From positions 1 through 24,623 of IMG/VR virus record IMGVR_UViG_3300042485_000886: a stretch of 24,623 nucleotides of DNA. One strand, written 5' to 3'. The position numbers and the translations under genes are program-made. The stretch is from a virus. Under the pieces are notes generated by a model. The model was not told where the DNA came from. It did no database searches and saw only the letters and a program-made list of their open reading frames with translations. The first letter of the stretch is position 1. The number at the start of each line of letters is the position of its first letter. Shown here one piece after another: positions 4,639 through 11,319 of the stretch.

Positions 4639-4974
4639 TTATAAAATATTGATTAGGTTTTCTATGTCAGTACTAACTAACTCATCTACATCGGATTGAT
4701 CCTGTATAGATGCTATGCCGTGCATGACAGTACTATGGTCACGGCCAAACAAATCGCCAATAGATTTAAGCTTTAACTTAAGTCTAGTTCTTATTAGAAA
4801 CATAGACATATGTCTAGCCGTTACAATAGTTCTGTACCTCTTCTTGCCTCTAATCTCTTCATTAGTGATATTGTAATAGGTACATACCTTGGCTATAATC
4901 TCATTAGCAATGGCTTCTCTTTGTCTTGGGTTGAGCTTTGTCTTACGAATAGAAGGTATAGCCCAGTAGTCCAT
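4639..4974 (-). CDS. Stand-alone DnaA domain IV DNA-binding protein
   Basis: The 111 residues consist almost entirely of the C-terminal DNA-binding domain of DnaA: VCTYYNITNEEIRGKKRYRT, VTARHMSMFLIRTRLKLKLK, and the signature GRDHSTVMHGI (about residues 79-89). The AAA+ ATPase domain is absent. The HTH should recognise DnaA boxes; the protein could recruit or block host DnaA, or act in phage initiation or transcription. I chose the ATG at 4974 because it follows the upstream TAA by one base (TAAAATG), as at other junctions; in-frame ATGs at 4992 and 5016 would lengthen it by 6 or 14 residues. The family assignment is firm; the role is inference. Confidence 0.88.
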   Translation of the reverse strand: MDYWAIPSIRKTKLNPRQREAIANEIIAKVCTYYNITNEEIRGKKRYRTIVTARHMSMFLIRTRLKLKLKSIGDLFGRDHSTVMHGIASIQDQSDVDELVSTDIENLINIL

Positions 4975-4975
4975 T

Positions 4976-5170
4976 TTATTCTTGATGTTCATAGATAGAG
5001 TTTTTAAGTTGTTCAATCTTTTTTGCGTAGAAGGCTTCTACAACTTCTATCATTTCCTCATCAGCCGCAGCTAAACGAGTTTTTATTAGGTAGGGTGAAT
5101 AGCCTGTTACCTCACAAATCTTTTTTATATCGCCATACTTAAGTAAGGCACGATAATCTCTAATCAGCAT
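4976..5170 (-). CDS. Small helix-turn-helix-like hypothetical protein (64 aa)
   Basis: The segment KYGDIKKICEVTGYSPYLIK reads as a helix-turn-helix (first helix GDIKKICEVTG, recognition helix SPYLIKTRL), followed by an acidic/basic helix (EEMIEVVEAFYAKKIEQLK). Small HTH proteins of this kind are common in Bacteroidota phages; DNA binding is inferred from pattern only. It overlaps the upstream gene by 11 bases and sits just ahead of the DnaA-like gene, so the two putative DNA-binding proteins are co-expressed. Confidence 0.68.
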   Translation of the reverse strand: MLIRDYRALLKYGDIKKICEVTGYSPYLIKTRLAAADEEMIEVVEAFYAKKIEQLKNSIYEHQE

Positions 5171-9114: not shown

Positions 9115-9642
9115 ATGAATGCAGAGTTCAAGGATATAAGCAAAGAAGCTTTTATCATAGCTTACAAGGAGAATTTTGGCAATATCACCATTGCTTGTGA
9201 ATCAGCAGGGGTTGGTAGAGGTCAATACAAGGCATGGTGTGATAAAGATCCTGAGTTTAGACAAAGATTGGCTGAAATAGAGCCTGAGGAGATTATGCTT
9301 GACTTCGGTGAGCATAAGCTGATGGAAAGAATTGCTAAGGGTGATACCTTGGCCACAATGTTCCTGTTAAAAACCAAAGGTAAGCGTAGAGGGTATATCG
9401 AAAGGCAAGAGGTTGCTCATGAAGGAGATGTAGTTAAGCAGATTACTGTTAATGTCCTAAAGGCTAGTCATGTAGAGGAGTTGTCTAATGGTGTTCAGCA
9501 GTTAGATGGTGATGAAAATGTAATCGAGGATACAGGATTTGTAGTTCCAGCTACCGAAGCTGCTAATATCCAAGATATTCCACTTTACGAGTTCGATAAA
9601 GAGGTAGAACTACCAAATGAGATGGATATTTACGAAGAATAG
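9115..9642 (+). CDS. terS: Terminase small subunit
   Basis: The small terminase recognises phage DNA and regulates the packaging motor. The 175 residues start with a helix-turn-helix region (about 10-60: AYKENFGNITIACESAGVG, then YKAWCDKDPEFRQRLAE). The typical oligomerisation stretch follows (about 75-105: MERIAKGDTLATMFLLKTKG and KRRGYIERQEV). The acidic C-terminal tail (about 130-175) probably contacts the large subunit. It is followed by the other packaging gene, but only after an unusual 540-base gene-free stretch that may contain its DNA target. Confidence 0.88.
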   Translation: MNAEFKDISKEAFIIAYKENFGNITIACESAGVGRGQYKAWCDKDPEFRQRLAEIEPEEIMLDFGEHKLMERIAKGDTLATMFLLKTKGKRRGYIERQEVAHEGDVVKQITVNVLKASHVEELSNGVQQLDGDENVIEDTGFVVPATEAANIQDIPLYEFDKEVELPNEMDIYEE

Positions 9643-9944
9643 ATCCGTAGGATATGAGAATAGCTCTATTTAGCATTTTAAGGCGATTCTACGGCATATC
9701 TGCCTTTCAGTAGTACTATCTATCCAAAAAGGTGTAGAGTGTCTTAAAACGCTTCTAAATGCCCTTTAATTAGATTGCATGAATTTTTTAGAATTATTCA
9801 TGCAGATTTGCCAAAGTCGGTAGTGAAACTTGGACAATATCCGAATTAGTGTTACCAATTTATATAAATATGTGACAAAGTGAGGGGTAATTCGGTAGTA
9901 ATACTACTCTATTATCAAAATATGTAAAATCTGCAAGTTTTGAT

Positions 9945-9974
9945 ATTACTCAATCGACTGAGTAATTTTACTCA
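9945..9974. repeat. Three alternating TTACTCA half-sites
   Basis: ATTACTCA (9945-9952), its inverse TGAGTAAT (9959-9966) and TTACTCA (9968-9974) form two overlapping dyads with 6-base and 2-base centres. This is the geometry expected of binding sites for a dimeric protein, or of mutually exclusive hairpins. Confidence 0.7.
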
Positions 9975-9975
9975 A

Positions 9976-10019
9976 TGAGCCGTAAATGATTGATAAACGG
10001 CTCAAGAATGATTGATAAA
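9976..10019. repeat. 8-bp dyad with 13-bp direct repeat
   Basis: TGAGCCGT (9976-9983) and ACGGCTCA (9997-10004) are perfectly inverted around a 13-base loop. Most of that loop is one copy of AATGATTGATAAA (9985-9997), and a second perfect copy lies at 10007-10019, 22 bp away (about two helical turns). Confidence 0.75.
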
Positions 10020-10141
10020 GTGCCTTATAAAGCACAAAAGCATATCAGAATGTGCATTTTATGACGCATTATGCACTCATTAGTGTCATTTAATGCACTT
10101 TATGGTGGATATCCCCTACTTTCCTATAAAACCAAAAAGAT

Positions 10142-10149
10142 TAGCTTTG
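10142..10149 (+). promoter_or_regulatory. Candidate promoter for large terminase
   Basis: TAGCTTTG matches TAnnTTTG exactly, 33 bases before the terminase ATG. An AAACCAAAA leader element (10158-10166) lies between. The -33 region has no TTG at the usual spacing. Confidence 0.42.
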
Positions 10150-10182
10150 TCTTGAGCAAACCAAAATTTTTAATTTATTTCT

Positions 10183-11319
10183 ATGGAAGTAACCACCAAT
10201 GTTGTCTTTGAGGTACTAAACAACTCGAAGAAGAGAATCTCTGTTATGCAAGGAGGTACGAGGTCAGGAAAGACTTACAATGTGCTTACCTGGTTTATAG
10301 TTAAGCTTTTGCAAGAAAGAGGTAAAACCCTAACAATTTGCCGTTCATCCCTACCAAGTATCAAGGGATCGGTCATGAGGGATTTTATTGAGATACTATC
10401 GAAGTATAAACTCTACTCGGAGGAGAAACACAACAAATCAGAGAATTTATACTTCCTTAATGGCAACACGGTAGAATTTGTATCTACCGACCAACCGCAG
10501 AAGATTAGAGGTCGTAAAAGGCACTATCTGTTTATTAACGAGGCAAATGAGGTTAACTACGAATCTTGGATGCAGTTAGCCCTAAGAACTACGGATAAAA
10601 TCGTACTTGACTATAATCCTTCCGATTATTACTCTTGGATTTACGATAAGGTCATTCCTAGAGAAGATACCGACTTTACCATCACGACTTATAAGGATAA
10701 TCCTTTTTTAGATAAAACCATTATTGCCGAGATTGAAAGATTAAAGGATGCTGACCACGAATACTGGAGAGTTTATGGATTAGGGGAAAGAGCGATTAGT
10801 GAAGCTACGATTTATAGCCATTGGAGAAGAAGAAGGAACTTCCCTGAGGGTGGAGATGTTTTCTACGGCCTTGACTTTGGTTATAACAACCAGACTGCTC
10901 TTGTAAGGTGTAAGAACTTCGATGGTGACATTTATGTCGAGCAACTGATATATGATACCAAGATGTCAACCTCACTCCTAATAGACCGCTTAAAGTCTAT
11001 GGGGCTATCTCGTAGAGATGAGATATTCGCAGATGCTGCCGAACCTAAAACAATAGCTGAGGTAAATAAAGCAGGGTTTAATTTAAAGTCTGCTACTAAA
11101 GATGTGTTCGCAGGAATTAACAAGGTTAAATCATTTCCGCTATTTGTAAAATCAGAATCCTTAGATTTGTTAGATGAGATTAAAAACTACAAGTGGAAAA
11201 CGGATCATGATGGCAATACAATGGATGAGCCTGTTAAGTTTCGTGACCACTTGATGGATGCTATGCGTTATGCTATCTACTCAAAATATGCGAAAGCAAA
11301 GAGAGGATGGGTGGTTTAG
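10183..11319 (+). CDS. terL: Terminase large subunit (packaging ATPase/nuclease, PBSX XtmB type)
   Basis: This is the motor ATPase that pumps DNA into proheads, with the nuclease that cuts the concatemer. The 378 residues contain Walker A GGTRSGKT (24-31), Walker B-like HYLFINEAN (about 114-122) with the catalytic Glu, and a coupling region near 140-150. The RNase H-like nuclease domain has YGLDFGYNN (about 228-236), EIFADAAEP (about 280-288) and the distal acidic motif FRDHLMDAMRYAIY (about 350-366). All key acidic residues are visible. It is at the short end for the family but complete. The portal gene follows after 36 bases containing a candidate promoter. Confidence 0.95.
   Translation: MEVTTNVVFEVLNNSKKRISVMQGGTRSGKTYNVLTWFIVKLLQERGKTLTICRSSLPSIKGSVMRDFIEILSKYKLYSEEKHNKSENLYFLNGNTVEFVSTDQPQKIRGRKRHYLFINEANEVNYESWMQLALRTTDKIVLDYNPSDYYSWIYDKVIPREDTDFTITTYKDNPFLDKTIIAEIERLKDADHEYWRVYGLGERAISEATIYSHWRRRRNFPEGGDVFYGLDFGYNNQTALVRCKNFDGDIYVEQLIYDTKMSTSLLIDRLKSMGLSRRDEIFADAAEPKTIAEVNKAGFNLKSATKDVFAGINKVKSFPLFVKSESLDLLDEIKNYKWKTDHDGNTMDEPVKFRDHLMDAMRYAIYSKYAKAKRGWVV

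Follow-up and report, generated by a model that had tools for sequence, protein, structure and literature searches.

Palindromes in the terS-terL gap

The stretch analysed here (the window) is a 24.6-kb record of an uncultured virus, in which the genes for the small and the large terminase subunits (terS and terL) are separated by a gap of 540 nt (9643-10182). An earlier note on this DNA described at least four perfect 8-bp dyads in the gap, expected fewer than one by chance, and offered a packaging initiation site, a regulator array for late genes or a structured RNA as possible functions. We counted perfect dyads with loops of at most 40 nt and used 300 dinucleotide shuffles as the null. Five dyads with arms of at least 8 bp were found, against 0.65 in the shuffles, confirming both figures of the earlier note, and lowering the arm limit to 7 bp raised the count to ten, where the shuffles gave 2.3; none of the 300 shuffles contained as many in either class. 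The five lie at 9776-9804 (9 bp), 9841-9895, 9913-9945, 9945-9966 and 9976-10004, and no other 500-nt bin of the window holds more than two. The features of the gap and its flanks are as follows.

9115-9642, plus strand: small terminase gene (flank); weak PHROG match to terminase small subunit, 74-98% identity in relatives
9643-9765, plus strand: conserved left flank of the array, kept by all relatives (alignments, fold)
9776-9804, no strand: module m02, TGCATGAAT-N11-ATTCATGCA (dyad count, module sharing)
9841-9895, no strand: outer dyad CCGAATTA/TAATTCGG, enclosing the AbiE-type module at 9850-9877 (dyad count, alignment)
9850-9877, no strand: TGTTAC-N16-GTGACA, degenerate, AbiE type (likeness to the TGTCAC..GTGACA palindrome)
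9895-9907, no strand: GTAGTAATACTAC dyad, usually adjoining m07 (alignment, module order)
9913-9945, no strand: module m07, TATCAAAA-N17-TTTTGATA (match to the palindrome of PDC-S01-type AAA_14/DUF4143 genes, subfamily 2)
9945-9974, no strand: module m03, ATTACTCA-N6-TGAGTAAT plus a half site TTACTCA (match to PDC-S01-type sites, subfamily 1)
9976-10004, no strand: module m00, TGAGCCGT-N13-ACGGCTCA (TGAGCCG..CGGCTCA; pattern search)
10009-10019, no strand: TGATTGATAAA repeat, right half of the TTTATCAATCA/TGATTGATAAA pair found on either side of modules in other arrays
10052-10098, no strand: module m06, GTGCATT..AATGCAC, with a hairpin inside (dyad count, module sharing)
10142-10149, plus strand: TAGCTTTG, a Bacteroidota-type -7 box in the right flank, kept in relatives; probable promoter of terL and the late genes, judged from its sequence
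10183-11319, plus strand: large terminase gene (flank), Pfam Terminase_3

The left flank directly after terS can form a long stem whose pairing partners vary among relatives; it may be a 3' UTR or a processing signal, distinct from the array. Elsewhere in the window, a DnaA-like replication initiation protein is encoded at 4639-5016 on the minus strand, with a DnaB helicase gene in the same leftward cluster.

Turnover of the array among close relatives

At least 307 IMG/VR contigs carry a relative of the window's terL; none was found in GTDB genomes, and the best identity to a cultured phage is about 36%. Among relatives with 94-100% identical TerL, the gap ranges from 197 to 2516 nt. Alignments showed that entire hairpins are gained or missing and that deletions are bounded by short direct repeats, TCGGTAGT among them. 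Two stretches are conserved: roughly 100 nt following terS, and the last 80 nt or so ahead of terL, which include the TAGCTTTG box. Near-identical phages carry anything from one hairpin to more than ten modules: some relatives, with 94-95% identical TerL, are left with one tiny hairpin (three retain no more than one), the array being close to absent in L066, L073 and L077. No array was seen elsewhere in the contigs of the near-empty relatives, which are incomplete. As some relatives keep a single hairpin, the array is not essential everywhere.

This variability bears on the idea that the gap is a replication origin or another single cis-acting replication site. Such a site would account for the presence of one AT-rich array per genome, the recurring TTTATCAATCA/TGATTGATAAA repeat and the DnaA-like initiator encoded in the window; however, the swing from one hairpin to more than ten modules, and near-empty relatives with no array elsewhere in their (incomplete) contigs, make it a very improbable explanation.

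Several gaps or arrays differ in other ways. Six (L004, L013, L035, L070, L133 and L176) contain an ORF of 156-158 aa inside the gap or array, with a T5orf172/MUG113 (GIY-YIG-like) N-terminus and a helix-turn-helix like that of mobile mystery protein A; the product may act at the same operators as a repressor carried by the phage, or it may be a homing endonuclease. The 1039-nt gap of L079 contains a 217-aa ORF resembling DNA adenine methylase. In L005 terL is almost identical, yet no recognisable terS lies within 4.3 kb upstream, possibly owing to a large insertion or recombination. Contig ends, taken from the contig sequences, are spread through the gap with no single point; they were rejected as genome termini, since hypervariability accounts for the scatter.

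Hairpin modules common to unrelated phages

More than 20 hairpin families are common to unrelated phages of 34-84 kb, in varied order and both orientations, and modules also occur singly, in any order and either orientation. The most widespread, m00, was found in 109 IMG/VR contigs, including genomes of 67-84 kb without the window's terminase pair. The window's segment 9895-10116 has a 95% match over 222 bp in two other phages (L157 and L228), where it lies in an early gene region. A distant blastn search of cultured phages and plasmids with the gap gave no match.

The position of the array differs between phage groups. In the window's family it separates terS from terL; in G022, L190 and L228 it stands between early units that diverge; and in G030 and G042 its neighbours are a tail-side and a portal-side gene, some 10 kb away from terL. 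At the tail-side/portal-side locus, it stands in opposite orientation in L187 and L218 between the same flanking genes. A single array per record was found in the window and in all seven scanned records of 34-84 kb, not copies dispersed over one genome as would be expected of REP or MITE elements. The array resembles REP/BIME and MITE elements as short intergenic palindromes in mosaic clusters and in both orientations, but differs from them in being single per genome, in the lack of a detectable transposase and in its matches to defence operators. The promoter stem-loop (PeSL) cassettes of T4-type phages are mobile, intergenic regulatory hairpins that carry promoters. Like PeSLs, the modules are mobile regulatory hairpins between phage genes; unlike them, the arrays are depleted of promoter boxes (see below).

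These loci argue against a pac or cos site, the first function offered by the earlier note. In the window's family the terS-terL position would suit packaging initiation and some contigs end in the gap, but a packaging site is expected to stay beside the terminase genes, and the modules occur in G030 and in the early regions of G022, L228 and L190. In type C phages with the same modules, some 10 kb separate terL from the array; relatives whose TerL is 94-95% identical manage with a single tiny hairpin; the array is almost missing in L066, L073 and L077; and the contig ends scatter as expected of a hypervariable region. We therefore hold a packaging site to be scarcely credible.

A cluster of transcriptional insulators or terminators between transcription units would also fit several positions: the array separates the end of terS from the terL promoter in the window's family, follows an intrinsic terminator in type C phages, and has divergent promoters on either side in type B phages. 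However, T tracts and GC-rich stems are absent, a terminator is not needed between the divergent genes of type B phages, and neither the sharing between unrelated phages nor the matches to defence operators described below would be explained. We consider this reading very improbable.

Matching palindromes upstream of bacterial defence genes

The modules are almost absent from bacterial genomes. Among about 85,000 GTDB species genomes, the strict m00 pattern was found in one contig, which is phage-like and belongs to the Chitinophagaceae MAG UBA8137; two contigs binned in this MAG (C36 and C198 of G038) are phage-like and bear arrays. Eight module families nevertheless have look-alike palindromes at the promoter-operator position of genes in Chitinophagaceae and other Bacteroidia. 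Their partners are PDC-S01 AAA_14/DUF4143 genes (two subfamilies), AbiE (three types), mobile mystery protein A, SoFic and another Fic protein.

At a chromosomal-looking locus of UBA8137, a GTTCAC palindrome lies 8 nt upstream of AbiEi_2/AbiEii with a TTACTCA double dyad nearby, and an exact GTTCACTGCCCGTGAAC core is common to this MAG's phage contig C36 and its AbiE locus. GTTCAC sites upstream of AbiEi_2 occur in two genomes. In six genomes besides UBA8137, AAA_14/DUF4143 genes have the TTACTCA dyad 3-33 nt ahead of their ATG; in two genomes, genes of the second AAA_14/DUF4143 subfamily have the TCAAAACTTG dyad 23-25 nt upstream. TGTCAC, GTTCAC and TGTC(C/A)AG modules match palindromes at the AbiEi-operator position in Chitinophagaceae. 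PADLOC assigned both AAA_14/DUF4143 proteins to PDC-S01 (E 4e-189 and 2e-143) and others to AbiEi, AbiEii and SoFic, with no match for the AbiEi_2 and mobile mystery A proteins; an NCBIfam match was to mob_myst_A.

An unbiased search was made of 149 Chitinophagaceae genomes with a query of module variants; the control was this query read backwards but not complemented, so that its composition and palindromes were preserved. The module query gave 24 scored bacterial loci. Intergenic palindromes made up 13 of these, and at 8 loci a Fic, mobile mystery protein A or AbiEi gene followed 0-60 nt downstream; the 30 control loci yielded three intergenic palindromes and none at such genes (Fisher p = 0.0007). 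Direct placement upstream of such a gene, as expected of an operator, thus held for 8 of 13 intergenic palindromes against 0 of 3 in the control. The genes concerned are SoFic (L486), Fic (L487), mobile mystery protein A (L488, L490), AbiEi with AbiEii (L489, L491, L492) and AbiEi_2 (L507); a further locus, L496, adjoins AbiEii. Bacterial matches at E ≤ 0.01 are mostly background, as 29 of the 149 genomes also match in the control, and the two queries are separated only by the class of intergenic palindromes upstream of a defence gene. Degenerate patterns and the variant-rich query were more productive than a long query of concatenated modules, which in 395 class-level genomes recovered, apart from the UBA8137 phage contigs, the m07 type alone.

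Three modules of the window have bacterial partners. The AbiE-type module at 9850-9877 shares 21 of 28 positions with a Chitinophagaceae site upstream of AbiEi/AbiEii and 23 of 28 with a solo host site; m07 (9913-9945) is identical at 27 of 33 positions to the palindrome upstream of PDC-S01-type AAA_14/DUF4143 genes of subfamily 2; and m03 (9945-9974) agrees at up to 28 of 30 with bacterial sites of the subfamily 1 kind. Bacterial partners were also sought for m02 and m06, and none was found. Together, these comparisons of sequence give good support to the view that the modules resemble operators of host defence or toxin-antitoxin (TA) genes.

About one third to one half of the bacterial palindromes are solitary, with no defence gene adjoining. 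Two solo palindromes (L470, L482) are accompanied by gene relics. In G569, a PDC-S01-type AAA_14/DUF4143 gene (C33:3942-5268; L472, L476) has the same palindrome on both sides in inverted order, which suggests a mobile cassette. At L481 (G482:C29), some 1.2 kb separate a TTACTCA double dyad from an ORF like the N-terminus of Cas9.

Operator-like evolution and loss of promoter boxes

In 10 of 13 module families the arms diverge less than the loops (exceptions: m02, m04 and m21). Base pairs with both partners changed number 0-2 per family in 12 of 13 families; in m04 there are 8, against 355 other changes. Conserved arms with rare compensatory changes are expected of recognition by a protein rather than of RNA structure. 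This bears on a large structured non-coding RNA, another function proposed in the earlier note. Folded as RNA, the gap reaches -139 kcal/mol (z = -5.1; 0 of 100 shuffles equally low), and most related gaps show a similar excess over shuffles. However, covariation within the module families, a kind of check that the note had called for, revealed almost no compensatory changes; an Rfam scan and a tRNA search of the sequence returned nothing; and L187 and L218 have the array in opposite orientations, with modules also found singly in any order or orientation. Such an RNA is, in our judgement, very unlikely.

For 11 of 17 bacterial sites, a TAnnTTTG box occurs in the 110 nt that precede the start codon, in most cases beside the palindrome or overlapping it. 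In the phage arrays, this box occurs at 0.53 of expectation in gap interiors and 0.33 in other arrays, against 0.97-1.39 elsewhere in the phages; non-independence of related arrays inflates the depletion statistics somewhat. TAnnTTT[ACT] shows no depletion. No TAnnTTTG was found in the window at 9770-10100, and the phage GTTCAC module keeps the half-sites and spacing of the host site but not the host's TATATTTG. Across 3.7 Mb of phage DNA there are no AbiE, Fic or AAA_14 genes or fragments, and similarity to mobile mystery protein A is confined to the T5orf172/MUG113-HTH protein encoded in arrays. With the -7 box depleted and no TA gene in the phages, the modules do not have the setting of an operator that overlaps a promoter and controls a phage gene. 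The sequences read as operators without promoters. The regulator array of the earlier note was the nearest of its three guesses: the dyads resemble operators bound by proteins, but their counterparts belong to host defence/TA genes, not to phage late genes.

The palindromes may alternatively be debris: remnants or ends of mobile TA or AAA_14 cassettes, or MITE-like elements, which gather in one tolerant spacer and spread by recombination without benefit to the phage. Consistent with this, whole modules come and go, deletions run between short direct repeats, homing-endonuclease-like ORFs lie in some gaps, and bacteria contain solo palindromes with gene relics as well as an AAA_14 gene flanked by palindromes on both sides. 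Against it, there is one array per genome in place of dispersed copies, no AbiE, Fic or AAA_14 gene or fragment accompanies the palindromes in the phage DNA, and decaying debris would not be expected to show the conserved arms of most families or a loss of promoter boxes specific to arrays. We regard debris as unlikely.

A putative DNA decoy for host defence regulators

We propose, at about even chance, that the gap is a DNA decoy array for autoregulators of host defence. The array is a mosaic of operator-like palindromes, several of them like PDC-S01, AbiE, mobile mystery A and Fic operators minus their promoters. After infection, replicating phage DNA would present many copies of these sites, which would bind the host's DNA-binding autoregulators or antitoxins; control of the defence systems would be disturbed, either because fresh antitoxin synthesis is forced or because DNA-bound effectors are sequestered. 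The proposal presumes that host proteins recognise the phage copies, that the array phages, whose hosts are assigned by indirect evidence, infect Bacteroidota carrying these systems, and that titration would benefit the phage. Titration on amplifying phage DNA would account for the independence of locus and orientation, the single array, the fast turnover, the absence of promoters and the dispensability of the array. The benefit is not obvious, as titrating an autorepressor would raise toxin and antitoxin alike. It also counts against a decoy that the commonest module, m00, as well as m02, m06 and others, have no bacterial partner, that so many of the bacterial palindromes are solitary and that some relatives manage with a single hairpin. 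To our knowledge, DNA binding is not known for AAA_14/DUF4143 proteins.

AbiEi antitoxins of S. agalactiae and M. tuberculosis repress their own synthesis by binding inverted repeats at the promoter (PMC3985639, PMC7319586). In type IV abiE loci these repeats lie over the promoter just upstream of the antitoxin gene, and the phage modules match Chitinophagaceae palindromes so placed; the phage array differs in having neither promoter box nor abiE gene and in stringing many operator types together. A precedent for imitation is phage PhiTE, which escapes a type III TA system through pseudo-ToxI, imitation antitoxin repeats that evolve by expansion and recombination and defeat abortive infection (PMC3475682). 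The array would likewise be a repetitive imitation of TA elements; unlike the PhiTE repeats, which are an RNA mimic of one antitoxin, it consists of operator-like DNA sites for many systems, with a putative effect. No description of such an element was found in the literature searched, a search that left most subscription journals outside its scope.

More tentatively, and at somewhat less than an even chance, we suggest that these phages keep a single, fast-reshuffled library of promoter-less copies of host defence operators. The library would serve as a DNA sponge with many targets among abortive-infection and candidate defence systems, and what it contains would track the defences of local hosts. 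If so, this would be counter-defence built of DNA sites, not of protein or RNA, which acts on several systems together and passes between unrelated phages. The contents of an array would then predict the defences that a phage meets and the operators of those defences. For the candidate defence gene PDC-S01 (AAA_14/DUF4143), autoregulation via DNA binding would be suggested.
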